From Cupriavidus sp. YR651 (GTDB lineage Bacteria > Pseudomonadota > Gammaproteobacteria > Burkholderiales > Burkholderiaceae): a DNA stretch of 64,000 nucleotides. Below are positions 21,292 through 46,518 of the stretch, piece by piece. The notes beneath the pieces were generated by a model that did no database searches, had not been told where the DNA came from, and worked only from the letters and a program-made list of their open reading frames with translations. The DNA lies in contig NZ_FMYZ01000002.1 of NCBI RefSeq assembly GCF_900101625.1, forward strand, positions 682,001 through 746,000. The letters run 5' to 3'. The position numbers and the translations under genes are program-made. Every line of letters starts with the position of its first letter. The stretch's first letter is position 1.

Positions 21292-21807
21292 ATGAGAACG
21301 AGTCGTCAGCCAGTACGGACCCTGGATCGACTGGATCGGAAAATCCTGACGGTGCTGCAGGCGGACGGACGGGTGTCGATGAAGGATCTGGCGGAGACCG
21401 TGGGACTGACCATCACGCCGTGCATCGAGCGCGTGAAGCGGCTGGAGCGCGACGGTGTCATCATGGGCTACTACGCACGACTGAATCCGGCGTTACTGGG
21501 CAGCGCGTTACTGGTGTTCGTCGAGATTTCGCTGGGCAACAAATCAGGCAACATGTTCGAGCAGTTCCGGCGCGAAGTACTGCGCATTCCGGAGGTGCTC
21601 GAGTGCCATCTGGTATCGGGTGATTTCGACTACCTGATCAAGGCGCGCATCCGCGAGATCGGCGAGTACCGCCGGCTGCTCGGCGATATCCTGCTGCAGC
21701 TGCCGGGCGCCGCGCAGTCGAAAAGCTATGTGGTGATGGAAGAGATCAAGGAGACACTGGCCATCTCGGTCGAAGAGAAAGAGCGGGGCCAGCAAGGCTT
21801 GGCATGA
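21292..21807 (+). CDS. Lrp/AsnC-family transcriptional regulator
   Basis: Feast/famine regulator of 171 residues. The N-terminal winged helix spans residues 10-65 ([20 protein letters not shown], then [20 protein letters not shown]); the C-terminal RAM domain contains [20 protein letters not shown], the effector-sensing core. Divergent from dadA across 109 bp, which suggests a DadR-like role in alanine catabolism. Its stop overlaps the following radical SAM gene by ATGA, so the two were probably co-translated before the island arrived. Confidence 0.92.
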
Positions 21808-22169
21808 GCGAACAGCGGCGCGACCAGACACGCGAAGAGAGGGATCGGAGCGACCGCGACGACGACGGCCAGGGCCAGCGTCGACCAACGGCGGCCCGCA
21901 AGGGGCGAGGCGCGGTCAGCAACCTGCAGGGGCGCTTCGAACGCGATCAGCGCGAGGCGTTTGACGATGGCTGGGCGTCGGCCGACGAAGATGTCGTGCA
22001 CACGGTTGAGGTTGCTGCGGGAGCGGATGCGATCGAGTCGCCGCCGGCCCGCCTGATCACGCAGGTGACCACGGAGCGAGCGCGCTCGATTCTTACGCGC
22101 AATGCATCGCCGGACATTCCGTTCGATGTTTCACTGAATCCCTACCGAGGGTGCGAGCACGTTATGTAG
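21804..22169 (+). pseudogene. PA0069-type radical SAM protein, truncated by island insertion
   Basis: The first 118 residues match the N-terminus of the PA0069/SplB-like radical SAM family, which normally runs to nearly 400 residues. The frame ends in NPYRGCEH followed by Val-Met-stop, whereas the family continues [17 protein letters not shown] with the Fe-S cysteines. The gene is therefore cut within one codon of its active motif, at about 22161, and cannot be functional. The sequence after the break is lower in GC and leads into recombinase genes. The remaining two thirds of the gene was not found in this window. Confidence 0.88.
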
Positions 22170-22170
22170 C
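22155..22170. other. Probable left attachment junction of the genomic island
   Basis: Chromosomal coding similarity stops after GTGCGAGCACG, at about 22161. This is the best estimate of the left island boundary. No copy of this sequence marking a right end was found in the window. Confidence 0.6.
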
Positions 22171-22345
22171 CCCAAGAAGTGTTCACGGAAACAGTGAAAT
22201 CCCTTGTGTGGCGGCCGCTCTCGGGGAAGTGCGCAACTTATTGCTCAAGTTGCCGCAATGTTCATGTCCTTGACTTTTGGTCTCTGCTGACTAGGCTCGT
22301 GCAGTACATGCTGCTCCAGAATGTTCAGCACTACGGAGGTCCCAA

Positions 22346-22449: not shown

Positions 22450-23811
22450 ATGTACCGTGACGCAGTGGAATCACGTCTGCCATATTTTCGTCTCACGGAA
22501 TTCTCAGGCTCCGACGGCGTGGCTTATGCGGTTCGAAAGACTTGGGAGCGTTCAATGAGCGAAGTCAGCGATTTTCTCGAAGGCGAGGTTGTCCTATTCA
22601 CGCATGAAGGGGGCGAAGGGGAACTGAAACCCGGGCATCCATCCTTTTTCATCGAGACCGAGAATGCTGCCCATATTTTGGAAGAGATAACTCTCTTTTT
22701 GGCGAGGCACTTCGTTTATGCGGGTAGTACTCCCAGTCGTCATACATGGGCGGCGGCTGCTCAAGCCCTTAGGACATGGCTTCAATTTCTGCAGGCAATA
22801 GGAAGATTCTGGCGCGACGCGACTGCGCAAGACCGAATTGATTATCGTGAAGCCTATAAAATAGCATATTCACCCCGTACCGGTGAGCAATACGACGCAG
22901 GGACAATAAGCTCCCGGATGTCTATCATCCGGGAGCTTTACGTCTATGGACGTTCTTCCGGTTGGTATGATGGTGATATCGGCGAAAATGTAGAGCTAGT
23001 TCCTGAGCAGACGGGGAAAAGAGGTAAGGGCAGACTTACCGGACAAAAGGATCGGGACCTACCTAAAGCCAGAAAAAGTTCTGTCATCCACCCAATTTCC
23101 CCACTTCCATTGCAAGCGCTTCTTGCATTTGCAGGGCCTCGTGCGTCGCAGCCAGGAAACGATGCTCGGTCGCCTCGTGACAGGCTCACTATGGATTGCG
23201 GGTGGGCTGCGGGCCTAAGGGTAGGGGAAATTGCGAATCTCACTACCCTTCAGTTTCTCAGCCTATCCCCGGATCCCGAAGCGCTTTACGCCGACCTCCC
23301 GATAACAATCCTACGAAAGGGAGGTGTAAAGAAGATTGTCGCCATGCCCACGTGGTTAGTAATGGACATTCTGGCTTACATCGAAGGAGAGCGTGCGGCT
23401 TCTCTTCGAGCCGCAGAAGTGAGCGCGAGGAACGCCCCCATCACTCTCTTTTTGACGCACCCCGACAGCAATCGCGCCGGCCGCCGACTTTCAATTAGTC
23501 GCATGCAAGGCATGTTCGAGGAAGCTTGCCTGGCAACTGGTCTGGTGAAGCACTTCAAGTTCCGAGATGAAAATGGCGAAACTACTCAACGCATGCGAGC
23601 GCGACACTGCATTCACGACTTGCGGCACACCTATGCCGTTTATACCTACCATGCGGAAGTACTGAACGGCAATTCAGAGCCCTGGAAAAAGATCCAAGCT
23701 CAACTGGGCCACGAGAATTTGGAGACCACCATTCAGATTTACCTTGCCTATGTCGAGATCTTCAGCAAGAAGCCGGGCTTGATCAACGTTCGTAAAATGC
23801 TGGGCGTATGA
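22450..23811 (+). CDS. Tyrosine recombinase 1 of an integrase trio
   Basis: Tyrosine-family site-specific recombinase, 453 residues. Catalytic residues are all visible: first Arg in AAGLRVGEIANL (about residue 256), the HxxRH box as HDLRHTYAVYTY (about 389), the GH box as LGHENLETTIQIY with the nucleophilic Tyr about residue 430. The N-terminal part contains the SAM-like core-binding domain. It overlaps the next gene by ATGA, so the three recombinases are one translationally coupled operon. Start is uncertain: no clear Shine-Dalgarno precedes 22450, and Met at 22555 is an alternative. Probably mobilises the island. Confidence 0.9.
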   Translation: MYRDAVESRLPYFRLTEFSGSDGVAYAVRKTWERSMSEVSDFLEGEVVLFTHEGGEGELKPGHPSFFIETENAAHILEEITLFLARHFVYAGSTPSRHTWAAAAQALRTWLQFLQAIGRFWRDATAQDRIDYREAYKIAYSPRTGEQYDAGTISSRMSIIRELYVYGRSSGWYDGDIGENVELVPEQTGKRGKGRLTGQKDRDLPKARKSSVIHPISPLPLQALLAFAGPRASQPGNDARSPRDRLTMDCGWAAGLRVGEIANLTTLQFLSLSPDPEALYADLPITILRKGGVKKIVAMPTWLVMDILAYIEGERAASLRAAEVSARNAPITLFLTHPDSNRAGRRLSISRMQGMFEEACLATGLVKHFKFRDENGETTQRMRARHCIHDLRHTYAVYTYHAEVLNGNSEPWKKIQAQLGHENLETTIQIYLAYVEIFSKKPGLINVRKMLGV

Positions 23812-25676
23812 AACAGGGCAGAAAGAATTCCGCGTCGGCAGTTGTTGCTCAAGCCAAGGCGCACGCCGAAAAGCAAGGGGAAGAAGGCGATGGGACTGGC
23901 GCGCTTCCGCTCGTTCGCGTCGAGCGGGCTGGGGATGCGACAGGAAAGGCACTCCTTCTAATAGTGATTCCCTCGGCCAAGAGGCCTGTCCCTCACAAAT
24001 ATGATGTGAGCTTCCTTCGTTCCTATCCATTGCTCTGTTCATTCTTCTTGGCAGGATTGATAGGGTATTTGCCCGCGCGTTCCCATAGGACGCGAATGCA
24101 TGGAGTCGACGACCTAAAAGATGGGTTTTTCAAATTTCTTCACGAGTATTGCCCGACCGCAAGCCTGCGACCGGAAGATATAACCGATGAATTGTTGGTT
24201 GAATTTCGAACGTGGCTTACAAAGCAAAAAAGGGCAATAGATGGCAAGCCCTATCATCCCAAATATGTCGGAAGAAAACTAGGTGCCCTTCGGTCAATAT
24301 TGGCAAGTCTTAGCACCGGCAAATGGGTTGCAATAGCCTGTTCAGTGGCGCAGAGGGTACCTTTCGGTCCGCAAGAAATAACCAAACACAACACGCCAAT
24401 CGAGGTGTTAAGCGTCGACACCTTGGTCAACATCATACGTTCTTGCGAGAATGAGGTGTTGGCGTTCAAGGCTCGATGGGAGCAGGGCGAAATTCTTCTT
24501 CGGGAAGGGCGAGTAAAGATCTGTGCTGAAGATGTAGATCTCAAAGATCTGTCAGTATGTTTGGCGCTATTGGCAGATAAGTATCCTGGCGTTGTACCTA
24601 ACGTTGGTGATTTTAAGAAGGAATTTCCAGAGCTTGGGCTGAGGGCGAAAAAGCATGGTATCGGAAAGTTGACATGCTATCTATATCCGTCTGCGCGGGA
24701 CCTTATTCCGTTTGTCATTCTCCTGGCCGTTGTCACAGTATTTAATGCTGATACGGTGCGCAGCCTGAGATGGGATCACATAGATCGGGATGTGGACAAT
24801 GCTGGCTCGCTCGCTATTTTAATTGTGGGCGAGAAGGCGCGTGCCAATGCCGATCCGGTACGCGTTCTAGACCCAAATCCAGGTGGCGATGGCCAGCTTG
24901 GTTTGGGCGAGCTTTTGGAAATCTTGGAGAAGGTTACTGCACGTATCCGTCGCTTTGCGAATGAGGAGGATGCAGAGGATCTTTTTCTTTATGTCCCAGA
25001 AACAAAAACTAAAAGGGTGGCCACTTTGATGGACAAAAATATAGGGCAGAGTGGAGTTAGTTGGACGAATGGTCTAAAGAATTTTATAAAGGATAGCAAC
25101 CTGCCACATTTCGCGCTCGATCAAATCCGCCCCACGATAATAGATCTTGTGCAAATTTTTGGCGGAGGGCTTGAGGAGGCAAAGGCCATCGGTGATCACT
25201 CCAAAATCTACACAACGTGGATAAGTTATACGAGTGATGGCACAAAGAAGAAAAATAGGGAAAGCATAGGGATCGTAACCCTCCTCCGGGAGAGATGGTT
25301 TACCACAGCCGGGAGGATTGATCCACGCAAACTCTTGCCGTGGCAGGATAAGGGGGCGGCGACTCCTGGCTTTCTCTGCGCTGACCCATTTGATTCACCT
25401 CTCTCGAATCAGCGCGGAAACATTTTATGCAATGCTTATGGTGAATGCCCCGGGTGTCCTAACGCTGGAGCTTTACCTCTTGAATCTCTGTGTGTTGCGC
25501 ATTATTTCGCGTTGCAAAAATCTATTTTTGAGAGCCGGTATCAAATGAGTCCAGAAACGTGGGTTCAGCGATGGGAACCGCAACTGATCGCACTGAATAA
25601 TCTCTTGGGCGCCGTTCCGAGTGAGGTGGTTGAAGACTCGAAGAGTTTCAGTGTAACTCTGCCGATGGTGGGCTGA
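23808..25676 (+). CDS. Tyrosine recombinase-like protein 2 of the trio (degenerate active site)
   Basis: Large second integrase, 622 residues, recognised from position and C-terminal pattern. An Arg lies in NADTVRSLRWDHI (about residue 316), but the HxxR box reads ALDQIRPTI with Asp in place of His, and the last box is IGDHSKIYTTWISY, where a Tyr is available (about residue 470). A C-terminal cysteine cluster (CNAYGECPGCPN) resembles a zinc ribbon, a feature of trio-type integrases. It may act as a structural partner, as subunits do in Tn554-like TnpABC systems. It overlaps recombinase 1 and ends 4 bp before recombinase 3. Confidence 0.8.
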   Translation: MKQGRKNSASAVVAQAKAHAEKQGEEGDGTGALPLVRVERAGDATGKALLLIVIPSAKRPVPHKYDVSFLRSYPLLCSFFLAGLIGYLPARSHRTRMHGVDDLKDGFFKFLHEYCPTASLRPEDITDELLVEFRTWLTKQKRAIDGKPYHPKYVGRKLGALRSILASLSTGKWVAIACSVAQRVPFGPQEITKHNTPIEVLSVDTLVNIIRSCENEVLAFKARWEQGEILLREGRVKICAEDVDLKDLSVCLALLADKYPGVVPNVGDFKKEFPELGLRAKKHGIGKLTCYLYPSARDLIPFVILLAVVTVFNADTVRSLRWDHIDRDVDNAGSLAILIVGEKARANADPVRVLDPNPGGDGQLGLGELLEILEKVTARIRRFANEEDAEDLFLYVPETKTKRVATLMDKNIGQSGVSWTNGLKNFIKDSNLPHFALDQIRPTIIDLVQIFGGGLEEAKAIGDHSKIYTTWISYTSDGTKKKNRESIGIVTLLRERWFTTAGRIDPRKLLPWQDKGAATPGFLCADPFDSPLSNQRGNILCNAYGECPGCPNAGALPLESLCVAHYFALQKSIFESRYQMSPETWVQRWEPQLIALNNLLGAVPSEVVEDSKSFSVTLPMVG

Positions 25677-25680
25677 TGTC

Positions 25681-27813
25681 ATGAATGTAAAATACAAGCC
25701 GGAAAAAGTTGCGCCAAACGAAAGGTCTCAGAGCATTTATGATTTGAGCGATGATGAGTTAGGGGATTTCTGGGTAAGCGACTGTAGTCAGGTAAAAGAC
25801 CTTGAATGGTTCTTCCCGAACCAGACGCCCGGAGCAAAGAAATCGAGCAGCACGCTGAATTGGGGGATGAAACTCTATGATGGGAGTCGCTTAAGCGATC
25901 CAGAGCATGCACAAAAGTTGTGCTGGGCCAAAATCGCGATGCTGACTCTATTGAAGGACCCTGAATACGGAGCCCCTCCCGCACCTGGAAGCATGCTTGC
26001 TTACCAGCAGGCATTCAAATGGTTGTTGTCCTGGATGTCTGAAATGGCCTATTTTCTGCCATCAGAACTCACTCCGTCTGTGGTGGAGCACTACATCGAG
26101 GATTTACCTCGATTTATCTTGGACTGCAACGAAGAGGAAGTGCTGACGATCTCTACGACCAGTCGTGCGCTAGACGCGCTGGCTGTGCTTTGGCAACAGC
26201 GTAAGCAACTCAAAAGATTCGGGATTGAGTCACTTCAAAGTGACCCGTTTTTTCAAAAAGGCGTAGCAACAGTCGCAGAGGATATATCGGGGCAAGGGGT
26301 GGGGTGGATTCCCCCACTTCCTGATGAAGTTGCTATCCCCATTTTCAACAAGGCTTTTTGGTTTGTGAGAGTGCCGGCCGAGGATATTTTGAAACTGGTT
26401 GAAGCTCACGAGGTAAGGACGGGGGAAAGTGCAGACGTTAGGTCAAAACGCATACGTCGGAGAATACTGAGTTTCAATTTTGCTCACGATGAAAGTAATG
26501 GTGGTCGGTGGCATAAAAGCATCGCAGATATTATTCCAAAGAGAGCTTCATACGATTTCACACCGACCCTCACTGTGAAACATCTAGTCCGGAATTTGGT
26601 TGGTGCCTGCGCAATCCTCCTGGGAGGGCTGTCGGGGATGCGAATTTCCGAGATGTGCGGTTTGGAGGTGGGTATCGACCCCAAGACTAAATTGCCTACT
26701 AATGTTCGTATAGAAACAGGTGCCTCTGGTTTGTACGAGTGGTTTGTGCTCAAATCGGTTGAGGCAAAGGGAAACAAGGGGATTTTGGTTGAGGTTGAGT
26801 GGGTGCTCGGGATGCGTCTGGCCGGTAGTAATGAGATACCGCCCGCAGTTCATGTATTGCAGTTGCTAAATCGACTTTTTTCGATTTGGCGGGAAACGGC
26901 AGGCTGCACCAAGCTGCTACTACAGTGCTGCCAAAAAAATTCGCTTGCTGTGCCGGGAAATGCGCTTGCAGGGATTCCTGCTGATGAGCTTAGGATGACG
27001 ATGAAGGATTTCGTCGCTAACTGGGTGGATCTATCTAATCTCCCGGATGAGAGTAGGCATAAAACTTCGGATAACGACCTGATTCCTTGGCGGGAGACAA
27101 AAGGAAGAATATTGAGCACTTATATGCTCAGAAAAACATGGGCGAGTTTCACCCTGGCAGTTAACCCTCGTTTGCTTAGAGCGATACAGATGCAGTTTCA
27201 CCATCTTCGCTCGGCTGTTACTGAAGTTAGCTATATCGGGAGCAATCCCCTGTTGGTCGAGTCTCTTGATTCGGTCGCGCGGCAGAAGCGAAATATGTGG
27301 ATATATGAGATGGCGACCGGCCAGTTGGCGGCAAGCGGGAGGATGGGCAAGCAACTGTACGAGGCCTCAAAACATCTTCACGCGCATTGGACGAACTTGC
27401 CCACGGCGGAGCGGTGGAAGAGAATTGCCCGGTGGGCAGACGGAAACGAGATTAACTTTTTCTTCGCAGATCACAGTACATGCAATCCCATGCTGCGCAG
27501 TGAAATGCGGTGTCAGGATGTTGCTAAGACGCCTATTTGGCTGCGTGTTCGGCCGAATTTTCGGACGCGTGAGCCGGGCTTGTGTGCTGGCTGTGCGTGC
27601 GCAATAGTAGATCAGAGTCACGAGCCGTTTTGGGCCAACCGCTATGTGCAACACAAAGTGGCGATCTGGCGTGCTGAGCAACTCGGCACGACCGGCCAGT
27701 TCAAAGTGATACAGGCCCGTGCGGAGCAGGCGAAACGATTCCTGGCGTCTTTTGGAACAGATTTGGCTCCCCTGGATATTCTCGTCAGACAGCAAGTGGA
27801 GGGTGCCTCATGA
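25681..27813 (+). CDS. Tyrosine recombinase-like protein 3 of the trio
   Basis: Largest trio member, 710 residues. The first catalytic Arg is in GGLSGMRISEMCGLEV (about residue 319). The second box reads YMLRKTWASFT (about 482), with Lys in the HxxRH context, then FHHLRSAVTEVSYIG with a candidate nucleophile Tyr (about 518). A C-terminal cluster (LCAGCACAIVDQSHEP) may bind zinc. The last four bases overlap the accessory gene by ATGA. Codon use and GC are lower than the flanking chromosome, as for all three recombinases. Layout recalls gamma-mobile-trio (GMT) and Tn554/RIT elements, but with an extra recombinase. Confidence 0.82.
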   Translation: MNVKYKPEKVAPNERSQSIYDLSDDELGDFWVSDCSQVKDLEWFFPNQTPGAKKSSSTLNWGMKLYDGSRLSDPEHAQKLCWAKIAMLTLLKDPEYGAPPAPGSMLAYQQAFKWLLSWMSEMAYFLPSELTPSVVEHYIEDLPRFILDCNEEEVLTISTTSRALDALAVLWQQRKQLKRFGIESLQSDPFFQKGVATVAEDISGQGVGWIPPLPDEVAIPIFNKAFWFVRVPAEDILKLVEAHEVRTGESADVRSKRIRRRILSFNFAHDESNGGRWHKSIADIIPKRASYDFTPTLTVKHLVRNLVGACAILLGGLSGMRISEMCGLEVGIDPKTKLPTNVRIETGASGLYEWFVLKSVEAKGNKGILVEVEWVLGMRLAGSNEIPPAVHVLQLLNRLFSIWRETAGCTKLLLQCCQKNSLAVPGNALAGIPADELRMTMKDFVANWVDLSNLPDESRHKTSDNDLIPWRETKGRILSTYMLRKTWASFTLAVNPRLLRAIQMQFHHLRSAVTEVSYIGSNPLLVESLDSVARQKRNMWIYEMATGQLAASGRMGKQLYEASKHLHAHWTNLPTAERWKRIARWADGNEINFFFADHSTCNPMLRSEMRCQDVAKTPIWLRVRPNFRTREPGLCAGCACAIVDQSHEPFWANRYVQHKVAIWRAEQLGTTGQFKVIQARAEQAKRFLASFGTDLAPLDILVRQQVEGAS

Positions 27814-28079
27814 TCAAGCTTCGACGTGAGCGGCAAGCAGGACTCGACCCGATAGAGCAGGCATTTCGGGATGCGCTTCAGCGACTGATTGAGGGAGAGC
27901 CCAAGAACAAGAGGCTCAAAGAGTTGGCTTCGAAAGGAATTCTACGAATTAACTCTGCTAGCGTGGCGCTTGAGGCAGGTTACTCGCGTACGCTGATAGG
28001 AATGGACGGATGCCGATACCCAATCGTTCGTCAATTAACCATGCAGCGGAGGGCGCCTCATGACCAAGCTGCGACGTGA
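27810..28079 (+). pseudogene. Truncated first copy of the trio accessory gene (tandem duplication)
   Basis: The first 75 of 89 residues match the N-terminus of the next gene closely (PIEQAFRDALQRLI shared exactly; RTLIGMD shared). The duplication unit is 250 bp, not a multiple of three, so reading runs out of frame at the copy junction and ends in APHDQAAT. The fragment keeps the HTH-like region but loses the coiled coil. Whether the 89-residue product is made is unknown; it has the ATGA overlap with recombinase 3 that the intact copy has lost. Confidence 0.75.
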
Positions 28080-28575
28080 GCCGCCTGCAGACATGGACCC
28101 AATTGAGCAGGCATTCCGGGATGCGCTCCAGCGGCTGATTGATGGAAAGCCTAAGAATGAGAAGCTCAAGGAGTTGGCTTCGAAAGGAACGCTACGAATC
28201 AACCCTACCAATGTGGCGATTGAGGCAGGTCACTCGCGTACGCTGATAGGAATGGACGAATGTCGATACCCCATCGTTCGCCAGTTAATCAAGCAAGCCA
28301 AACAGGGCAAAAGCTCTCTCCCAACAACACACACCGAGCTTATACAGCGGCTGCGTGCCGACAAGGCTGAGCTTATTGTTCGGGTCAACCAGTACAAGGC
28401 TGAAGCGACCGCACACTACCTCGCGCGCGTAAAAGCCGAGAAGAGGGCGGACGTCGCAGAAGGTCGAGCGGCGCGTCTTCGCAGAACGCTGTCTGCGAAG
28501 GGCAACGTTACCCATATCGTTCCTAAGGACGCCTCCCGGCCTTCTGCGCCATCTGACGAACAATGGAGGGATTAG
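28060..28575 (+). CDS. Trio accessory protein (HTH plus coiled coil; GmtX/TnpC-like)
   Basis: Small protein of 171 residues following the recombinase trio. Residues 10-40 are helical (PIEQAFRDALQRLIDGKP); residues 48-75 look like a helix-turn-helix (NPTNVAIEAGHSRTLIGMDE); residues 95-150 form a charged coiled coil (RLRADKAELIVRVNQYKAEA). The same order, HTH then coil, is known in small partners of integrase trios, e.g. GmtX and Tn554 TnpC, which affect recombination direction or target choice. Its 3' end overlaps the convergent phosphatase gene by 53 bp. Family assignment is by pattern only. Confidence 0.7.
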   Translation: MTKLRREPPADMDPIEQAFRDALQRLIDGKPKNEKLKELASKGTLRINPTNVAIEAGHSRTLIGMDECRYPIVRQLIKQAKQGKSSLPTTHTELIQRLRADKAELIVRVNQYKAEATAHYLARVKAEKRADVAEGRAARLRRTLSAKGNVTHIVPKDASRPSAPSDEQWRD

Positions 28576-29005
28576 CCTCTCCTAGGTGCTTCACGTCGGC
28601 CGCATAGCCGTAGAGGCGGTGGAGCCCCAGCGCGATCGCTGCCGACCGAGAATACCCACCTTCACAGTGCACCACCACGGTCGCCACCTCTCCTGGCAGC
28701 TCCACGACGAACCTTAGAATCGCCACTGCGTGCTCCGGCCGGAACGAATCTGCGAGCTTCTCCTTCGCTCGAGCCGATAGCTCCGGGTTCATGAAATCCA
28801 CATCGGCGAAGCTCAGCCGCAAAACCTGGTTGAATCCATCCAGGCTGGCCAACTGCCTCCCCGGCGCTGTCACGGAAATGACGGCCACCGACTCCAATCG
28901 CGGCAACTTCTCTGCGACATCCCGCGACACTGCCAGCACCTGGCGTTTTCCGTCCCTCGGCGGCTTATAGAGCTTGTCGATAGCATCCTTCAACTGAAGC
29001 GGCAC
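28523..29005 (-). CDS. Protein tyrosine/dual-specificity phosphatase-like protein
   Basis: 160 residues from a GTG start preceded by GGGAGGGA. The phosphatase signature C-x5-R is plain: VVVHCEGGYSRSAAIALG, with Cys114 and Arg120; Asp68 or Asp70 in SFADVD could be the general acid. No signal peptide, so it should be cytoplasmic. It is the last gene of a three-gene minus-strand set with the XRE regulator (29690) and the GVQPK protein (29359), spaced by 24 bp from the latter. Target unknown; related proteins in mobile elements are usually uncharacterised. Confidence 0.75.
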   Translation of the reverse strand: MPLQLKDAIDKLYKPPRDGKRQVLAVSRDVAEKLPRLESVAVISVTAPGRQLASLDGFNQVLRLSFADVDFMNPELSARAKEKLADSFRPEHAVAILRFVVELPGEVATVVVHCEGGYSRSAAIALGLHRLYGYAADVKHLGEANPSIVRQMAQKAGRRP

Positions 29006-29029
29006 TTCTATCCCTCCCTGGTTGCCCGC

Positions 29030-29359
29030 TCAGCCCTGCAGCAACGCTGCCAGTCTCCCGATGAGCCAATCCAGCTCATCCTCGGAGCACCAGCCTTTCT
29101 GCGACACTGATATCCGCAGCCTTCGAAGCGTCTTCTCCCGCGCCTGTCCTGGATGCCCCGTCTCGTCCTTCTGCGCAACTTGCAATAGCTGCTGCGCCAG
29201 GTCTTCGCAGATATCCCAACGCTCATAACGCTCTTCCTCGGTCTGACCGACGACGTATCGCCCGTCAATCCCTCGAACGCCGATTTTTGGCTGCACGCCA
29301 GTAACTACCGCGGGAATCGTGATGCGCGGGAAGTTCTCAGGCACGTCATTGAGGTTCAT
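29030..29359 (-). CDS. Unknown small protein with HipA-like GVQPK motif
   Basis: 109 residues from the ATG at 29359, overlapping the XRE gene by 14 bp. Residues 12-35 read TIPAVVTGVQPKIGVRGIDG, close to the (S)GvQPK loop that precedes the kinase domain in HipA toxins, followed by an acidic helix (EEERYERWDICEDLAQQLLQ) and a basic C-terminal half. No kinase catalytic residues follow, so it is not a full HipA. A HipB-like XRE gene directly upstream makes a relationship to Hip systems plausible. I do not recognise the family with certainty. Confidence 0.6.
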   Translation of the reverse strand: MNLNDVPENFPRITIPAVVTGVQPKIGVRGIDGRYVVGQTEEERYERWDICEDLAQQLLQVAQKDETGHPGQAREKTLRRLRISVSQKGWCSEDELDWLIGRLAALLQG

Positions 29360-29690
29360 GTTTGATTTCCGGCTTCTTCGCCCGAGGCTTGCTCGCGCGC
29401 TGGCGAGGCTCAGCACCCCTGGTCATCATCAATGGATTGATGGTCGCAACTGGCCCAATCGTGGCGAACCACTCCTGCCTGCCCAACGCTCGAACGACGC
29501 AGACGAGCGTGTGTAACGACGAGCCGTTACCCAGCTCGAGGTTCCGCAACGCCCGCGTGCTGACGCCGGCGCGCTCAGCCAGGACGGCCTGTTCCAGATT
29601 GCAATTGATGCGTAGGCGCTTGAGACTGCTGCCAATCTCGTGTTCGAGCTCCTCAGGGGTGTACGACCGAGTCGGGTCTACTCGCGCCAT
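29346..29690 (-). CDS. XRE-family (HipB-like) transcriptional regulator
   Basis: 114 residues with a central HTH (QAVLAERAGVSTRALRNLEL, residues 34-53) and a downstream LVCVVRALGRQEWFATIG, the arrangement of HipB-type antitoxin/regulators; the basic Pro/Arg/Lys tail is also common in regulators sitting before hipA. The ATG has an upstream GGTAG site. It overlaps the GVQPK gene, so the pair is translationally coupled, as in toxin-antitoxin loci, though no recognisable kinase toxin is present. Confidence 0.8.
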   Translation of the reverse strand: MARVDPTRSYTPEELEHEIGSSLKRLRINCNLEQAVLAERAGVSTRALRNLELGNGSSLHTLVCVVRALGRQEWFATIGPVATINPLMMTRGAEPRQRASKPRAKKPEIKHEPQ

Positions 29691-29832
29691 GTCACTACCT
29701 TCTGGCGCAAAAATGTCTCTGCAACTACGGGCACATTTGTTCCGCTAGCAGCCGTTTCGACCTCACTACAGGCAACTTCTTGCCGGTTGAAGCAGAGGGA
29801 AAGGGTGGCTCGGTTCGGCATGTTGGTCGAGG

Positions 29833-30261
29833 CTACTCAGGCTTATGTGTGGCGTGGTACTTCGCCATCGTCCTGAGCGCGGCCACGAAGTATGTCTTCC
29901 CCGTTGCTGTGACGTCGTCGATGGTGCAGGTCACTTCTTCTTTGGTGGCGGTGAAACTCGCGCCGTGCGTCTGTGCGTATTCGAGGACGGCCAAGCGGCT
30001 CGTCGAGTCGCAAGGCGTCAGCTGTACATGGGCGTTATTCATCGAATAGACCCGAAGGCTACCTCTGCTGGCGTCGTACGCGGCAAAAGCCTTTGTGGGG
30101 TCGCCAATGATTTCGAGCTCATCCGTTATGCATAGCTGGTACATCAGCTCGAGCTCGTTCATCTGGTCGATGGCTTTGCCAAAGCTGTGCTTGGTAGTGG
30201 TCGTCGCCCCCTCGGGCCACTCATCGAGCAATGCGGCCAAGCCCTTGCGTATGTGTTCCAT
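29833..30261 (-). CDS. Hypothetical protein, divergent from an XRE gene
   Basis: 142 residues from the Met at 30261 (MEHIRKGLAALLDEWPEGAT); a longer frame exists to 30411 but runs through the palindrome that serves the divergent XRE gene. It is acidic, without membrane segments or a signal. The region LEIIGDPTKAFAAYDASRGS and the C-terminal KTYFVAALRTMAKYHATHKP suggest a folded alpha/beta protein. No family recognised. Divergence from an XRE regulator 160 bp away suggests common control. Confidence 0.6.
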   Translation of the reverse strand: MEHIRKGLAALLDEWPEGATTTTKHSFGKAIDQMNELELMYQLCITDELEIIGDPTKAFAAYDASRGSLRVYSMNNAHVQLTPCDSTSRLAVLEYAQTHGASFTATKEEVTCTIDDVTATGKTYFVAALRTMAKYHATHKPE

Positions 30262-30353
30262 TTCAAAATCTCGTAGTCCGGAGGACCAATGTTGAGCCAC
30301 GACCTCCCCTGGTCGGCGCGTTCCATGCGGGAGTGGCAGCTTCAGTAGTTTGC

Positions 30354-36289: not shown

Positions 36290-38611
36290 CTAGATGATCT
36301 TCATCATCGCCTCGAAATGATCCTTGTCGTTGGTCTGGATGAGGCCAAGCAAGTCCGTGAGCACGGCGGGAGCCTCGGACAGCACCGACAGGTCGTGGTC
36401 AGCTTCGACCTGTTCCATATGCGAGTGGGTGTGTAAGAACCGCACGACTCTCGCCTTCGCTGCGGCGTCGCCCTGCAATGCATCAATCTGCTGCCCGAGA
36501 TTCCCAGCGCGACCAGGGACTCGGAACGACAAGAACGATTCAAGCAAACGCCGAGCAATATTGGGTAGACCGTACACTTCAGCGAGACTCTTTGGTGCAG
36601 CCGCTTTGGAGCCGTCACTCACGCACCGGAAAAGGTAGTGATACTCCGACTCGTATTCATGCAAGAGCGGATCCAGCGTACGGAGGGTGGCACCCCGTTG
36701 TCCGTCTTCTATCGTCGGTGCGAGCATATAGAAGTGTGTGTCCTTGGACTTCGCGGGCTCGTACGGTTTGTTGTTGATCTTCCCTGCATAGTTGAACCAA
36801 TTCTTAACTTGCCGGAAGAAGCTAAAGTTGTGGGTAAGGATGAAGATCTGCTTTGCGTCCTTCGTACGCGTCTTCATGTAGCCGAAGGCGCAGTACAGCG
36901 AATTCGCGTCTAGGCTCGATACCGGGTCGTCGATGACCACGATGCCGTTCTTGATGTCGAACGTCGCATCACTCAGCGTCTTCAAGAAATACATGAAGGC
37001 TATCGCCGTCCGCTCCCCGTCACTCAAATGCATGGCCGGCAGAGCGCCCCGCATGATGGTGTAACCCGTATCCCTCACCTCAAAGCGAAGCTCGTCTCTT
37101 CCTAGATAGGCAGCCATCTCACGGTTGAGCTCTTCGGCGGGCTTGAGATGCTGTCGAATCTCGCGCTGGAGATTCCGCACCTGGCCAGCAATTGGTTCGA
37201 GCCTGACGCTCTCTACGTCCAGCAAAACTCTTAGGTCGGAGATAGACGTAGTCCGAGAACCCCATTCTTCCAGCGTCTTGACGCCTTCATCGATTTCCAG
37301 GGCTGCTCGGGCGGCTGCGGCGGCTACGTCAAAATTGTCGGTGTGAGTGTTGTGTTTCTGGACCACATTCAGTAGTCGCTGCACTGCCGAGAAACCCGAC
37401 AACGCCCCGATTGCTGTTACGCCATTGAATATCAGTTCAATGAACTTCGCGAGCCCGGAATCTGTGGGGAAGTCGAATCTCGGAAGATAGTCCGTGAGAT
37501 TGAGCGAGCGGAAGGGCTGTTTGAGTTTTTCCTCAAGGGCACTTTGAACTCCCTTGAGATACATCTCAACACTCAAAGACTGGGTCTTCAGTTGCCCAAT
37601 GGCGGCATCGAACTCCGAATGGAGATGAGGATAGAGTGCTGACCGCTCTGGGATGGTCTTTGCCAAAGCCTCGCTGCGAATCGAACCAACCGTTTCGATG
37701 AGGATTTGAAGGCGCTCCTGATGTGCCTTGAAATTGTCGTTGAAGTGTGCGGCGAGAGTCTTTAGTCGAAGAAGCGGCAGCGGCTGATCACAGAATTTGC
37801 AGTGCGTCGCGTCTTCGCTATGCAAGTGAACACCTTCTTCGACCCAGTCTGCAAGCTCTGGAGCTCGAACGAGTTCCTCGATGGTACTTGAGACAACTGT
37901 GACCCGAAGTTCTTCAATAACTGCTTGCGTGAGTTCGGGGAGTTGGATATTTCCAGATGTAGGTTGGGGCAGCTTGGGCATCTGCGTGCCCTTAATAGCA
38001 TCCTCTAGCCGTTTGCGTTCCGCATCGTCCAACTGCGCGGTCGCGGACTTTTTGCCAGCTACGCGACGCATCAATTCCTTGAACTTCGGCGCTTCGTAGT
38101 TGTTGTAACGCGCATCACCGAGAAGGAGGTTCCGAATGCTACGGGCTTGGTTGGTGCAGAAGCTATTGAAGTCAGCTGTAGTCGTCTCTAGCTGCTTGGA
38201 AATCGAAGTGACCCGTTTCCGGAGGTCGTCTTGAAGCTGTAGCAGATCAGTGACCTGCTTCTGTTTGTTTGTGCTGTCCTCTCCCAAATAGAAAACAGGA
38301 GGTAGTTCATGCCCAGGCACTTCGAAGACGTTTCGATCGACGAAATCTCGGTTGAAGACCCTGATGGGAGGTGACGTGGCCACTCCGAAGTCTGCCCCCT
38401 TTAGCGCACCGCTTTCCAACAGCAGCTCCACGTAGGCCGCATCGGGTGTCTCGCCCCGCTGGAGAAATCGAAATAGGGTGGATAGAGAGGTCTTACCTGC
38501 GCCGTTCCAGCCATAGATGAGGTTGTAGCGACCAAAGTCTGGAAGCTCGTTCCACTTGAAGTTCCTGAAGATTCGGTAACCTTGAAGTTTCGTAATCTGC
38601 TTGATTGCCAT
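36290..38611 (-). CDS. AAA_13-family ATPase resembling anticodon nucleases RloC/PrrC
   Basis: 773 residues from the ATG at 38611, which follows a GAGAGG site. ABC/SMC-type ATPase: Walker A GWNGAGKTS (34-42), signature LSDGER (529-534), Walker B IVVIDDP (557-563), D-loop SSLD, switch His594 in LTHN. A single CKFC motif at 271-274 inside a helical region resembles the RloC zinc hook. The C-terminal region contains NIARRLLESF with Arg687 and Glu691, then HTHSH at 727-731: the Arg-x3-Glu then His order matches the ACNase triad of PrrC/RloC. Likely a tRNA-cleaving abortive-infection protein, inferred, not proven. Divergent from hns across 190 AT-rich bp. Confidence 0.75.
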   Translation of the reverse strand: MAIKQITKLQGYRIFRNFKWNELPDFGRYNLIYGWNGAGKTSLSTLFRFLQRGETPDAAYVELLLESGALKGADFGVATSPPIRVFNRDFVDRNVFEVPGHELPPVFYLGEDSTNKQKQVTDLLQLQDDLRKRVTSISKQLETTTADFNSFCTNQARSIRNLLLGDARYNNYEAPKFKELMRRVAGKKSATAQLDDAERKRLEDAIKGTQMPKLPQPTSGNIQLPELTQAVIEELRVTVVSSTIEELVRAPELADWVEEGVHLHSEDATHCKFCDQPLPLLRLKTLAAHFNDNFKAHQERLQILIETVGSIRSEALAKTIPERSALYPHLHSEFDAAIGQLKTQSLSVEMYLKGVQSALEEKLKQPFRSLNLTDYLPRFDFPTDSGLAKFIELIFNGVTAIGALSGFSAVQRLLNVVQKHNTHTDNFDVAAAAARAALEIDEGVKTLEEWGSRTTSISDLRVLLDVESVRLEPIAGQVRNLQREIRQHLKPAEELNREMAAYLGRDELRFEVRDTGYTIMRGALPAMHLSDGERTAIAFMYFLKTLSDATFDIKNGIVVIDDPVSSLDANSLYCAFGYMKTRTKDAKQIFILTHNFSFFRQVKNWFNYAGKINNKPYEPAKSKDTHFYMLAPTIEDGQRGATLRTLDPLLHEYESEYHYLFRCVSDGSKAAAPKSLAEVYGLPNIARRLLESFLSFRVPGRAGNLGQQIDALQGDAAAKARVVRFLHTHSHMEQVEADHDLSVLSEAPAVLTDLLGLIQTNDKDHFEAMMKII

Positions 38612-38665
38612 GCCTCTCGCCTTTCTCTGGACGATTCGCGCCGAATGGGTACCCGTTTGAACGAA

Positions 38666-38687
38666 ATACATTCTACGCCGAATGTAT
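38666..38687. promoter_or_regulatory. Inverted repeat in the divergent ATPase/hns promoter region
   Basis: ATACATTC and GAATGTAT with a 6-bp spacer, 55 bp upstream of the ATPase start. The shared 190-bp region is AT-rich and must hold both promoters. Plausible operator. Confidence 0.4.
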
Positions 38688-38803: not shown

Positions 38804-39118
38804 ATGGCTACTTACAAGCAACTGTTGGCCCAAAAGGAAGCACTGGAAGCGCAAATCGCAGAGGTGCGCTCGACCGAAGTCGCCGGCGTCATTGAGCAGA
38901 TTCGCACGTTGATGGAACAGTACGGGCTGTCCGTCGAAGATGTCCAAGGCAAGCGTCGCCGCGGTCGCCCAGCAGGAAGTGGGGCAGTGAAGGCCGCCAA
39001 AGAGCCGTTGCCCCCGAAGTATCGTGACCCGAAGACTGGCGCGACTTGGTCGGGCCGCGGCCGTGCGCCTGCTTGGCTGGGAAAGAACCCCAATCGGTTC
39101 CTTATTGCCGAGGAGTAA
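38804..39118 (+). CDS. H-NS histone family protein, copy 1
   Basis: 104 residues, preceded by AAGGAG. N-terminal coiled-coil oligomerisation region (MATYKQLLAQKEALEAQIAE), linker GKRRRGRPAGSG, and the C-terminal DNA-binding module YRDPKTGATWSGRGRAPAWL of betaproteobacterial H-NS proteins, binding AT-rich minor grooves. About 90% identical to the copy at 48643. The two copies stand at either side of the main defence block, 9.5 kb apart and in the same orientation. Both have GTTAAGCTA shortly upstream (38751 here). Confidence 0.93.
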   Translation: MATYKQLLAQKEALEAQIAEVRSTEVAGVIEQIRTLMEQYGLSVEDVQGKRRRGRPAGSGAVKAAKEPLPPKYRDPKTGATWSGRGRAPAWLGKNPNRFLIAEE

Positions 39119-39180: not shown

Positions 39181-40464
39181 TCAGTTGAGCGTCGGGTCGA
39201 ATGACTCAAGGAAGTCGTCCGCATTCTGACGAACTCCAATCAGGTTGAACCGTGCGAGTGTTATGTCGTCTACCTCGACTTGGGCCGGTGATACATAAAC
39301 GCTCCGATCGCCATTCCGATTGCGGTCTTCCATAAGTTCCGCCATGTTGCCATCTCGCAAAGAGTGCCCGACCACCGCCACCCGGCTTGTGGACAATAGT
39401 GCGCGTAGGCTCTGAAATACCGGGCGATTTTCGATGGCTCGAAGATCGGCTGTCGTAAGACACAGTGACTTCAGATCAGTAATGCTCCCGTTCATCTTAT
39501 AGATGCGAAGGCGACCATCATTTGTCGCAGGGGCCTCAGAGTCAGGGGTGATGACTTCATAGGGAACGTTCTTCTCGATGCAAGCCAACTCGAAGAGTGT
39601 GTCGAAATTCGTCGTCACGATGGCCTTAAACTTCAGCACAGCCTGCTGGTGAGCTACGGTTGGGCGTACGTGCTGTGGCGGATTCATCGTCTGTTCGACT
39701 ACATCTAGAAGCTTCGCTCTTCCAAGGCGCGCCTCCAAAAGACTAGCTACCTCGCTAAAGTTGTATCGATAGAGGTCTGACGTATCTTCCATTGATGGCC
39801 ACAAGAATCGTGCCAACGCCGTGGTCAGTACGTAGGCGGTCGGGTAGCCGGCAATTATGGAAAGTCCTGCTCCTGCAACAAGAACCCATTCGGAGTCTTG
39901 AGTGTTGGTACGAGCGCCCTCTTGAGAGGGTCTCGGAATGGCAGGTACGGGGGTGATTTTTGAATCCCGTGATCGAACGTGTTCCTTGAGGAAAGAATTC
40001 GTCCATAGACTCACAAAAGCGCTGGACGCTTTCTCTGCCAGATCGTCAGCCCATTCGAACTCGGTGCGAAATAGCCCATTATGCCAATCAGAAACTTCCT
40101 TTCTAAAGTTATCCCGCTGCTCGTCCGGTTTAGTGCCATATGAAAGCTTCTTCATGAAGGCGATTACGGGAATTCCCAACTCGCGAGCGTAGTCGAATTC
40201 CAGGTGAGTCACAGATTTCTTCTGTCCTGCTCCGTAGCCACTCGTGGGGTTCCAGCCATAACTAGTACCAAGTATGAGCACGCAAACATGGCATTGCTCC
40301 ATCTTTTCCCGAATAACTTCCCAACTGGACTCGCCAGTAGGACTGAATTCCTCGGCGAATACCGGGTCGATTCCCAGGCCTTTCAAGCTCTTTACTACTG
40401 CCCTGCGTTCGTTCTGCAGGTCTTCCATCGTGCTGCTGATAAATGCGCGAACCTTGGTCGACAT
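39181..40464 (-). CDS. DUF4062-SIR2-like fusion, candidate NADase effector
   Basis: 427 residues. Residues 4-106 are DUF4062 (AFISSTMEDLQNERRAVVKS), a TIR-like-fold domain common in NLR-type and defence proteins. Residues 192-375 are SIR2-like: GAGLS (198-202), TTNFD (284-288), GHSLRDGN (366-373). Where catalytic SIR2 proteins have His (KLHG), this one has Asn325 in KMNGS, so NAD hydrolysis may be altered. It follows hamB on the same strand after 62 AT-rich bp that could hold its own promoter. A defence role is likely from domains and context; a place in the Hachiman complex is unproven. Confidence 0.78.
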   Translation of the reverse strand: MSTKVRAFISSTMEDLQNERRAVVKSLKGLGIDPVFAEEFSPTGESSWEVIREKMEQCHVCVLILGTSYGWNPTSGYGAGQKKSVTHLEFDYARELGIPVIAFMKKLSYGTKPDEQRDNFRKEVSDWHNGLFRTEFEWADDLAEKASSAFVSLWTNSFLKEHVRSRDSKITPVPAIPRPSQEGARTNTQDSEWVLVAGAGLSIIAGYPTAYVLTTALARFLWPSMEDTSDLYRYNFSEVASLLEARLGRAKLLDVVEQTMNPPQHVRPTVAHQQAVLKFKAIVTTNFDTLFELACIEKNVPYEVITPDSEAPATNDGRLRIYKMNGSITDLKSLCLTTADLRAIENRPVFQSLRALLSTSRVAVVGHSLRDGNMAELMEDRNRNGDRSVYVSPAQVEVDDITLARFNLIGVRQNADDFLESFDPTLN

Positions 40465-40526: not shown

Positions 40527-42611
40527 CTACGGCTCGAGTGCTGAAATGACCCATTTACGTTCGAACGGCGTCAAGGCGGCGCTCTTAGACTGTGCTATAG
40601 CTGCCAGCTTAGCCGTAAGGCCAGCCTTGGTATCACCGGTGTGGAAGCGTTCCGAGATCTGAATGGGGATGCCCTCTTCGTCAAGGTTCTTCAATATCTC
40701 GTCCTTAAACCACCGGCTCAGCAGCTGAACAAAGAGACTGTAGTCCGCCGGCTTCTGCTCAGCCCGTACAAAAGCTTCAACAAGTGAGAACCACTGAGGG
40801 AGACCGTACTCGCAAGCCCGAAGAAAGCGAAAGACGTTGTCGTAGTTCTCTGGGTTGCCGATGTACTTCGAGTCATACTCGTTAAGAAAGGCCTTCATCG
40901 TGCGGGCCTTTCGAATGGAGTAAATTAGGTAGGTAAGCGATTTCGCCGTGAAAGCGCCGAACTCGTTTGGCCGCCTGACCGAGCACACTACATCTACAAG
41001 CGTCTTGATTTGCTCATAGTGAGGGTATCTGGTCCATGTCAGCTCCGCTCCTTTTTTTAGAGCCTCTGAAACGGCGTCCTTCAATCGACCAGCGCTTTCG
41101 AGGCCTAGGGAAGCTGCTAGCTTGAGCCCCGGACCGTCGAGGCCGAGGAGCTCACGTACGGATGTCAGTCGCTCGTCCGTTGACTTCTTCGCAGGCATAT
41201 CATCGAGCTGCACGACGTAATCCAAGGGTACAACGTCCTCATCTGCGAACAGGGTTGGATACACCTCCATCTCTTCTTCAAGAGGTGTTTCGTTAAACAA
41301 GAAGACCTTTCCTACGTGGTGTTGTCCGAGTCGTCCGGCTCTTCCCTTGATGTTGGAATACGTGAAGAAGTCGTATGGCTCCTTGTTTATGCTCTTGTCA
41401 TAAATAAGGACGGTTTTAGCGGCCGTGTTGACACCTTCGATGAGCGTGGATGTACAGAACATGACGGGGAGCGTGTCATCATTGAAGAGCCTAACCATAT
41501 GAGCAGCAATGGCACGAGGCAATCTGCCGTGATGGACCCCGAATCCAAACCTCACAGTGGAAACTAGAGACCAGTTTGCACCTACGTTCTCCGCTAACCA
41601 AGCCGAGAACTGGTCCGCGGTATCGGATACCGCCATGCTGTCTGCCGCGGATGCGGCGATCTTGTTGGCGCGGTCGGGAGACGACACGAAAACCAGCGCC
41701 GGCCAGTTGTCGTCCTCACCAATCTCGTCAAGAAGTCGCTCCTCCTTGTTGTCAATACCACGCAAGTCAAAGGTGTCGACGGCGACAGTAGAGAACTTCG
41801 TTCGAAGAAACTCGAACTTCCAGCGCCCGCCTTCGGTGAAGTGGACGTTGTCGATGTTCGGGCCGAGGAAGAAGTATTGTCTCGAGCGGTTGAGCAGCTT
41901 GTACACCGCAGCGTTCAGCGTGATGCTTCTATCGTCCCGCCTGTTCGGGTCGAGCTTATAGAATTCATCGACGACTGTGAGGTCCAACTTACCTAAGTCT
42001 GTGCGATGAATCAGTCGTTCCTGGGTGCCCAAGAAGATGGTCGGTACGCCTTCTGGTGCCGCCTCGTTAGGGTGCATCACCACGACGAATCGGTCCCTGA
42101 ATCGCCGTTGGAACCTGCGACGGAACTCATCCAGGAGGGCGATAGTCGGCAATACGATGGCAATCCGGGAATACTTTCCAGAGGCGAGCAACGCATCGAC
42201 CAACAGACTCTTTCCGAAACTCGTGGGGGCGCTAAGTATGAGGTTCTTGCCAGCCAGGAGGATATTTAGGGCTTCGATCTGTTCACGGTGCAGGGTAACC
42301 CCGTCAAGCTCGGGAACCGTCACTGCTTCCGCAAGCAGCAAATCCGAATCAGTAGCTGCACCCTTGTCGATATAGTTCCAAAGTCCGCAGGCTCGGGCGA
42401 GCGAGCTCAAGGGCTCACGGAAGGAGTCCAGTTCGGGACGCTCGACAACAAGCTCGGAAAGTCGTGGGACTATCTCGAGCACGCTTGGGCTGATTGGCGC
42501 CTCCGATTGGACCGCGCTCGCTGCACGTTGGAGGACACTGAACACCTGCGCCTTCAGGGCTTGCCCTTGCATAGCTGTGATCGTTGACCATTCTTGGGCA
42601 GAAATTTGCAT
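40527..42611 (-). CDS. hamB: Hachiman helicase HamB
   Basis: Superfamily 2 helicase of 694 residues, partner of HamA in the Hachiman antiphage system. Motif I is SAPTSFGKSL (127-136), motif Ia LPTIALLDEF, motif II VVDEFYKLD (213-221, DEFY type), and motifs V/VI FCTSTLIEGVNTAAK and NIKGRAGRLGQ. The N-terminal 100 and C-terminal 250 residues are helical and of family-specific type. It starts 2 bp after hamA, so the pair is coupled. In characterised systems HamB holds HamA inactive until it meets damaged or exposed DNA ends. Confidence 0.85.
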   Translation of the reverse strand: MQISAQEWSTITAMQGQALKAQVFSVLQRAASAVQSEAPISPSVLEIVPRLSELVVERPELDSFREPLSSLARACGLWNYIDKGAATDSDLLLAEAVTVPELDGVTLHREQIEALNILLAGKNLILSAPTSFGKSLLVDALLASGKYSRIAIVLPTIALLDEFRRRFQRRFRDRFVVVMHPNEAAPEGVPTIFLGTQERLIHRTDLGKLDLTVVDEFYKLDPNRRDDRSITLNAAVYKLLNRSRQYFFLGPNIDNVHFTEGGRWKFEFLRTKFSTVAVDTFDLRGIDNKEERLLDEIGEDDNWPALVFVSSPDRANKIAASAADSMAVSDTADQFSAWLAENVGANWSLVSTVRFGFGVHHGRLPRAIAAHMVRLFNDDTLPVMFCTSTLIEGVNTAAKTVLIYDKSINKEPYDFFTYSNIKGRAGRLGQHHVGKVFLFNETPLEEEMEVYPTLFADEDVVPLDYVVQLDDMPAKKSTDERLTSVRELLGLDGPGLKLAASLGLESAGRLKDAVSEALKKGAELTWTRYPHYEQIKTLVDVVCSVRRPNEFGAFTAKSLTYLIYSIRKARTMKAFLNEYDSKYIGNPENYDNVFRFLRACEYGLPQWFSLVEAFVRAEQKPADYSLFVQLLSRWFKDEILKNLDEEGIPIQISERFHTGDTKAGLTAKLAAIAQSKSAALTPFERKWVISALEP

Positions 42612-46051: not shown

Positions 46052-46518
46052 GCTGCCTCCCATCCCTTAGCAACTTTGTCGATCATAGCCTCGGTTATGT
46101 CCTTGCCAATCTGTATCAGTAAGCTGCGTTCTTCTGCGAACGCGCCGGAGTCTTTGAGCACCTCCGCGATGAATGCCTTGCCTTTGTCTGCGATTTGGTA
46201 TCCGGTCGATGTCGGTTGAACAAGTTCTTCCGCGATCGCGAAACGAACGGCAATAGCTAATGCCGGGTCGAATCCCCAGGCCGTCATGAGAAGGACCTTT
46301 GCCTTCGCCGCTTCCACGAGCTTCTGAATGCGGTCGGTTCTCTTCAACGCCCAATTGAACAAATGGAGGCGAGCCAGGGAGGACTTCCCGCCCCGAGAGG
46401 ACAAATGAAGTACTAGTAGTACCTGCGCGATCTTATACAGTGGGCGGTGCTCTACGAGAACAGGAGAAGGGCGGCGTACAAAGCGAAGATGGCGCTTTTC
46501 AGCCAATAGTTCAGCCAT
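46048..46518 (-). CDS. Middle component of the ABC-3C-like system
   Basis: 156 residues from the Met at 46518 (MAELLAEKRHLRFVRRPSPV), overlapping the effector gene by 8 bp and the ATPase by 4. The pattern HRPLYKIAQVLLVLHLSSRG, ARLHLFNWALK and a C-terminal winged-helix-like region (FAIAEELVQPTSTGYQIADK) is typical of the middle component, which bridges effector and ATPase. It has no catalytic motif. A longer start at 46539 is possible but the chosen one has the better ribosome site (GCGAGG). Confidence 0.75.
   Translation of the reverse strand: MAELLAEKRHLRFVRRPSPVLVEHRPLYKIAQVLLVLHLSSRGGKSSLARLHLFNWALKRTDRIQKLVEAAKAKVLLMTAWGFDPALAIAVRFAIAEELVQPTSTGYQIADKGKAFIAEVLKDSGAFAEERSLLIQIGKDITEAMIDKVAKGWEAA

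Follow-up and report, generated by a model that had tools for sequence, protein, structure and literature searches.

Module layout at the locus

The stretch analyzed here (the window) comprises 64,000 nucleotides of Cupriavidus sp. YR651 (assembly GCF_900101625.1, contig NZ_FMYZ01000002.1, positions 682,001 to 746,000 of the forward strand). Between positions 22450 and 28575 it encodes one module of four genes, termed A, B, C and D and running in a single direction, that is preceded by the 5' fragment of a host gene for a radical S-adenosylmethionine (SAM) enzyme of the PA0069 family and very probably marks the left end of a large integrative element. The following features make up this region, with positional names referring to the known elements compared in the last section.

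21804-22169, plus strand: 5' fragment of the host PA0069-family radical SAM gene, profile residues 1-69 (NCBIfam NF033668, E 2.2e-19)
22161-22175, no strand assigned: left end of the element, GTTATGTAG..., a terminal motif similar to the inverted right end (from the junctions of seven elements)
22180-22186, no strand assigned: subterminal TGTTCAC, candidate arm-type site (from the sequence; function presumed)
22450-23811, plus strand: A, tyrosine recombinase with intact R-H-R-H-Y, IntA-like position (Pfam, profiles, residue alignment)
23808-25676, plus strand: B, predicted recombinase-fold protein with ArgI replaced by Asn and HisII by Asp, ArgII and Tyr kept, four conserved Cys, Tfp-like position (alignment, model)
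25681-27813, plus strand: C, large tyrosine recombinase with Tyr for HisII and a C-terminal Cys motif, IntB-like position (profiles, alignment)
27810-28079, plus strand: truncated duplicate of the first half of D, 89 amino acids (aa), 70% identical to D
28060-28575, plus strand: D, small accessory protein with a helix-turn-helix (HTH)-like part and a long helix, Srap/GinD-like position (profiles, model)

The gene products comprise 453 (A), 622 (B), 710 (C) and 171 aa (D). A and B overlap by 4 bp, B and C are separated by a gap of 4 bp, and C overlaps by 4 bp with the open reading frame (ORF) at 27810-28079, a truncated D duplicate which directly precedes D and for which the scan of related loci showed no counterpart. 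Pfam assigns A to Phage_integrase (E 6.9e-9), and no Pfam or NCBIfam match above cut-off was obtained for B, C and D. The preliminary description of this locus had proposed three linked recombinases, coupled by ATGA overlaps or a 4-bp gap and followed by an HTH/coiled-coil protein, and these coordinates and spacings hold. Its second claim, a degenerate second recombinase with Asp for the catalytic His, is likewise confirmed by the alignment, according to which the first catalytic Arg is also changed, to Asn, and ArgII and Tyr remain. Elsewhere in the window genome (G000), a decayed second module is represented by two C-type recombinase fragments in different frames (G000:C11:6197-6789, locus L103).

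A radical SAM gene split at one codon boundary

The 5' fragment is an ORF of 121 aa upstream of A. Here the gene is cut directly behind the CEH codons (22152-22160), and the reading frame ends at a stop located shortly inside the element. The rest of the gene is located on contig C28 of the window genome, beside a complete copy, and the same arrangement of split gene and complete copy is found in Cupriavidus sp. D384 (G035). When 84,980 species genomes were scanned with two peptide patterns derived from three B proteins, 16 loci were recovered, seven of which bear the 5' fragment upstream of A (8/17 when including the window). All eight split genes are cut at the same codon boundary, CEH|GC. 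A search for the gene halves in 15 genomes, six of them with the 5' fragment, revealed both halves in five of these six (Massilia kyonggiensis, Massilia sp. Bi118, M. aurea, Janthinobacterium lividum and Variovorax YR216), and an acidobacterial metagenome-assembled genome (MAG) shows the 5' half together with a complete copy not linked to it and a partial copy of unclear nature. Together with the window genome and D384, both halves are thus known in 7/8 genomes. Integration of the element would take place at a single codon boundary, located in the [4Fe-4S] motif of the PA0069-family radical SAM gene, which would thereby be split.

Parting of the halves by chromosomal rearrangement or misassembly, with the module being a mere neighbour, might be suspected from the window genome, D384, M. 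kyonggiensis and Variovorax, where the halves lie on different contigs. In three genomes, however, a single contig carries both halves in the same orientation and the module adjoins the 5' half, corresponding to elements of about 56.8, 50.7 and 17.9 kb, and the cut is identical in all genomes. These single-contig cases largely refute rearrangement or misassembly, which is accordingly very improbable. As the 64-kb window contains no tRNA, a tRNA target is unsupported. In the open-licence library, no paper on the radical SAM target was found.

A complete gene copy on the element side

In six of the seven genomes with both halves, a complete radical SAM gene is present on the element side. Its position differs: the distance from the right end is about 0.2 kb in Cupriavidus and about 5 kb in two Massilia, the M. 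aurea copy directly follows D, and the Variovorax copy is about 88 kb from the left end. A survey covered 40 Cupriavidus genomes, including the window genome and D384 with their genes split at CEH|GC; among the other 38, none has two complete radical SAM copies. In two of them (G013:C1:1041863-1047050 and G029:C3:856593-859322), the gene is interrupted at other codons, by about 4.1 and 1.7 kb, respectively, and no second copy serves as replacement.

According to a gene tree, the carried gene has at least three origins. The Cupriavidus type is 93% identical between the window genome and D384 and shares 53-56% identity with the split gene of its own host, and its clade also holds the single intact gene of other Cupriavidus. 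The Massilia type is 79-97% identical to the split gene and the Variovorax type 59%. Upstream of all six carried copies, an exact CTGT-N8-ACAG is found, compared to 42/6000 shuffled windows. The same LexA-type box precedes 15 of 18 intact Cupriavidus genes (best matches, from 18 of the 38 genomes), 5/7 split host genes and one of six other complete genes (from Duganella, Herbaspirillum, three sphingomonads and the acidobacterial MAG). In P. aeruginosa, PA0069 counts as a member of the LexA regulon; the LexA and RecJ motifs used here likewise come from general background. No paper treating PA0069 together with LexA was found in the open-licence library. Judged from these upstream boxes, the carried copy is probably DNA-damage-inducible, i.e., under SOS control.

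The complete gene might also be ordinary cargo and not a functional replacement, as it sits at different places among the elements, as J. lividum has no carried gene at all, and as the interrupted genes of G013 and G029 are without replacement. Yet it has at least three independent origins, each in a genome with its own copy split, two complete copies do not occur in any of the 38 other Cupriavidus genomes, and the LexA-type box is present on all carried copies, rendering the ordinary-cargo explanation unlikely. Re-supply of the radical SAM function may be under selection. Target immunity of the carried copy by recoding is unsupported, the M. aurea copy differing little from its target, and in Cupriavidus G001 no type-1 fragment was found besides the intact gene that could be a relic of element loss.

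In 17 of 18 Cupriavidus genomes, the radical SAM gene is located beside Lrp and DadA genes. In the Cupriavidus relatives L011-L029 and L036-L038, the radical SAM gene beside Lrp-DadA belongs to one of two types (about 52-56% identical) and may lie in either orientation, suggesting that the locus has been turned over often.

Element ends and length

When the left end is compared with the reversed right end, the best alignment is in the same register in 7/7 elements, with 7-11 matches out of 14. The sequence TGTTC occurs about 20 bp inside the right end in all seven elements, and near the left end in 3/7 only. Between the right motif and the target, each of the seven elements shows five foreign bases, comprising six different sets, which differ from the radical SAM codons. 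Hence, in a scheme like that of the strand-biased circularizing integrative elements (SEs), the donor site would be another locus. Such a pattern may fit a 6-bp footprint of the SE kind; a circular intermediate is likewise presumed. Assuming that contigs C34 and C28 abut, the window element would have a length of at least about 79 kb (about 61.9 kb on C34 and about 17.2 kb on C28).

Distribution and kinship of the module

The 16 loci belong to Massilia (3), Duganella, Janthinobacterium, Herbaspirillum, Rhodoferax, a Comamonas MAG, a betaproteobacterial MAG, Novosphingobium (2), Sphingobium, Cupriavidus sp. D384, Variovorax, a proteobacterial MAG and the acidobacterial MAG; the three sphingomonad loci are near-identical to one another. 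In 15/16 loci all four genes are present, the remaining one (L065) having A, B and a shortened C without D. With 16 loci recovered and the four genes together in 15 of them, the arrangement is not due to chance, and the expected recurrence of the unit in other genomes, whose lack had been named as speaking against the proposal, is borne out. In three loci (L069-L071; 14139-15074), the D protein carries an additional fused domain at its C-terminus and has 303-311 aa versus the usual approximately 160.

In a profile test of 28 modules, some of which are part of the profiles, positions 1-3 each match their own profile best. Modules of the same order on Vibrio and enterobacterial plasmids match the A, B and C profiles, B weakly (mostly E 2e-6 to 9e-4); in gamma-type modules, the B match is weak in three (E 2e-4 to 9e-4) and D is weak or absent in several. 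In a tree of C proteins (32 rows), 14 rows including the window, D384 and the acidobacterial MAG form one clade (support 100/99) apart from the gamma-type modules. The window clade is a separate lineage in Betaproteobacteria, sphingomonads and MAGs. Applied to 369 genomes of the class, the C profile matches eight at E<=0.001, with long or strong matches in G000, G153 and G369, and the B profile 179 at E<=0.01; among the matches listed for B, most are short XerC/D-like stretches and therefore reflect a shared fold only. In viral contigs, 36 stretches fit a pattern, none of them a relative.

Catalytic residues and predicted structures

For comparing catalytic residues, 28 position-1, 29 B-type and 29 C-type proteins from the window clade, other alpha- and betaproteobacterial modules and plasmid modules were aligned, among them the pPUV-1 module, which is without a separate first gene. 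At position 1, R-H-R-H-Y is kept in 28/28. In B-type proteins, ArgI is replaced by Asn in 28 of 29 (the exception being one E. coli plasmid) and HisII is never present, ArgII is kept in 28/29, and the Tyr of the last motif in all 29, with the column of this Tyr varying. C-type proteins invariably keep ArgI, ArgII, the second His and Tyr (29/29), HisII being found in 26 and replaced by Tyr in the window, Ser in D384 and Gly in Variovorax YR216.

B is predicted to have a recombinase fold. Its AlphaFold model, built from 13 sequences (mean predicted local distance difference test, pLDDT, 75; predicted template modelling score, pTM, 0.52), aligns structurally with XerA, XerH and Cre (14 chains at probability 1.0, E 1.1e-4 to 9.3e-4), with a template modelling score over the query of only 0.22-0.33. 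The model of D (pLDDT 79, pTM 0.45) consists of a short-helix bundle followed by a single helix of 58 residues; in a Foldseek comparison against the PDB it gave no match at E<=0.001.

Cargo genes and apparent module exchange

The cargo within the window encodes the following proteins.

28523-29005, minus strand: phosphatase-like protein, cargo start in common with the D384 island (weak PF00782, below cut-off)
36290-38671, minus strand: PDC-S06/AAA_13, candidate defence protein (E 1.6e-286)
39181-40464, minus strand: DUF4062 and SIR2-like protein (profile matches)
40527-42611, minus strand: HamB helicase of Hachiman (E 2.7e-216)
42614-43468, minus strand: HamA of Hachiman (E 1.9e-127)
43994-46063, minus strand: LmuB of Lamassu (E 7e-116)
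46048-46539, minus strand: LmuC of Lamassu (E 2.5e-23)
46511-47437, minus strand: LmuA of Lamassu (E 3.4e-38)

Positions 28594-30264 share 80% DNA identity with the D384 island, and in total the two islands have common stretches on the left and the right at 69-90% nucleotide identity. Their modules, however, show no DNA match, with A, B and C being only about 24-31% identical as proteins. As cargo and right ends are alike but the modules unlike, comparison of the two islands suggests module exchange at one attachment (att) site between Cupriavidus islands. The stretches 38804-39116 and 48643-48955 both match one D384 segment (81-84% identity), so that the SIR2/Hachiman/Lamassu block is bordered on both sides by a repeat of about 313 bp.

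Other targets of sister elements

Other modules are found at other genes. In L069-L071, the cut is at the RGCPF motif of a B12-binding radical SAM gene, and in L065 (Duganella) dnaE2 is truncated at profile residue 445 of 1047, whereas the assignments of a recJ-like gene in L075 (E 0.002) and a PAPS (3'-phosphoadenosine-5'-phosphosulfate)-reductase-like gene in L072-L074 and L030 (E 0.016) are weak. Several of the sister-element targets are cut at catalytic motifs. Some gamma-type modules are located near umuD/umuC, polymerase or PAPS-reductase genes, which may be target or cargo. Five changes are required for the radical SAM label on the tree of C proteins, where it is found on either side of the clade's deepest split. 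Tentatively, and with less than even confidence, the four-gene lineage might be specialised on SOS-response genes and radical SAM enzymes, cutting them at invariant catalytic codons and re-supplying them under LexA control; the radical SAM target would then predate the clade's deepest split, dnaE2 and the B12-binding radical SAM, recJ-like and PAPS-reductase-like genes having become targets by re-targeting. If so, the element's own allele replacing a host SOS gene would make the element costly to lose.

Proposed mechanism and significance

The module, the identical cut, both gene halves and the complete gene on the element side are features of the genome sequences themselves. On this basis, the window very likely holds the left end of a large element of the SE/GInt kind, which integrates site-specifically, splits a radical SAM gene at CEH|GC and supplies its own complete copy behind a LexA-type box. 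In such an element, A and C would catalyze strand exchange, B might act as a catalytically impaired recombinase-fold partner aiding binding and synapsis of the ends, and D could serve as accessory DNA-binding protein. Insertion at CEH|GC would split the host radical SAM gene, and the complete gene of the element, behind its LexA-type box, would keep the function for the host while defence cargo is carried.

Several points weigh against this interpretation. J. lividum has the split gene without replacement, and the split genes of the window and Variovorax are not preceded by the exact LexA-type box. Taken alone, the end similarity is non-significant for the window (7 of 14, p about 0.46) and for D384. 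The halves of the window genome are on two contigs, the right end and any movement of the element being deduced. Finally, the SE/GInt assignment is by gene order and architecture as published.

This element would widen the range of a mobile-element kind that has so far been described from Gammaproteobacteria only, and it provides an exact att site. It would also be a plain example of an island disrupting a conserved gene within the catalytic motif while providing an intact replacement, the latter apparently gained on several occasions. Moreover, the PA0069-family radical SAM gene is marked as a gene with a LexA-type box, and the invariant ArgI to Asn change in B makes the role of an impaired recombinase open to test.

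Comparison with known mobile elements

The following comparison is based on the available parts of the published descriptions. The module is not a gamma-mobile-trio (GMT), recombinase-in-trio (RIT) or Tn554 element, the closest kinds being SEs and GInts, neither of which the preliminary description named. The preliminary description had likened it to GMT elements in a betaproteobacterium, and its picture of a multi-recombinase module with accessory protein and defence cargo in such a host stands. GMT elements (GmtY-GmtZ-GmtX; Mahata et al., 2024) indeed share linked recombinase-type genes, a small accessory gene and defence cargo. The kinship itself, however, is not supported by profile comparisons and gene layout. 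Searching 299 genomes for GmtX resulted in four loci, which have three genes with a large second protein of 756-1011 aa and no degenerate middle gene, thus lacking a counterpart of B. GmtY, GmtZ and GmtX from three of these loci (the fourth, G216, being left out) did not match the four module profiles (best E 0.08), nor did the NCBIfam Gmt models match A-D at E<=1; in the window genome, a single weak GmtY match (E 2.9e-4, below cut-off) lies outside the module.

Judged by published descriptions, the likewise suggested fit to RIT or Tn554 fails as well. RITs are trios of overlapping tyrosine recombinase genes and known from Cupriavidus (PMC3414803), but each recombinase has 315-410 aa, all with the catalytic Tyr and motif, and a fourth gene is not described (PMC10214605); the module encodes proteins of 453, 622 and 710 aa with an impaired B, and D is present. 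Tn554 (TnpA, TnpB, TnpC) resembles the module in combining an ordinary and a large recombinase with a small accessory protein and in its 6-bp footprint (PMC10214605, PMC3414803), whereas it has no counterpart of B, which sits here between A and C.

SEs are characterized by the gene order intA-tfp-intB-srap, with an impaired second and a coiled-coil fourth protein (Idola et al., 2023, PMC10214605). Further SE traits are imperfect inverted repeats of 13-19 bp at the termini, the 6-bp footprint, and circles that form with strand bias and leave no empty site. The same four-gene order is found here, together with an impaired recombinase-fold second protein, a large third recombinase, an HTH/coiled-coil fourth protein, site-specific insertion and an end-base pattern that may fit a 6-bp footprint; as ArgII and Tyr are retained in the second protein, it is impaired but not wholly RHRY-less. 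By order and architecture the module may hence be called SE-like. In contrast to the elements described here, Tfp and Srap homologues were reported by the SE authors to be absent from Alpha- and Betaproteobacteria, the median SE length is 15.7 kb (about 18-79 kb here), and a radical SAM target with re-supply is undescribed, the term 'radical SAM' not occurring in the paper (PMC10214605).

In GInts (ginABCD), three integrase-like genes are accompanied by a small fourth one, and recombination requires all four; these elements carry cargo of up to about 70 kb, insert in genes and are known in Betaproteobacteria (Bardaji et al., 2017, PMC5385486). The module could accordingly be a plain GInt, a kind already described for this class, with only the host gene being new, particularly as the gene set, the large cargo, the site-specific insertion within genes and the occurrence in Betaproteobacteria are shared (PMC5385486, PMC10214605) and SEs and GInts are told apart mainly by sequence clusters. 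In published GInts, however, the impaired protein is encoded by the third gene, ginC, adjoining ginD (order taken from the papers), whereas in all modules compared here the impaired gene is second, beside A, which makes a plain GInt somewhat unlikely. Moreover, at the GInt targets described (an ABC transporter gene, ssb and a ribonucleotide reductase gene) the product is little altered or re-expressed (PMC5385486) and not split and re-supplied as for the radical SAM gene. The element as interpreted here, SE-like in its module and in the SE/GInt kind overall, therefore belongs to a kind already known; new would be its target, a radical SAM gene split at CEH|GC, plus the re-supply of this gene.

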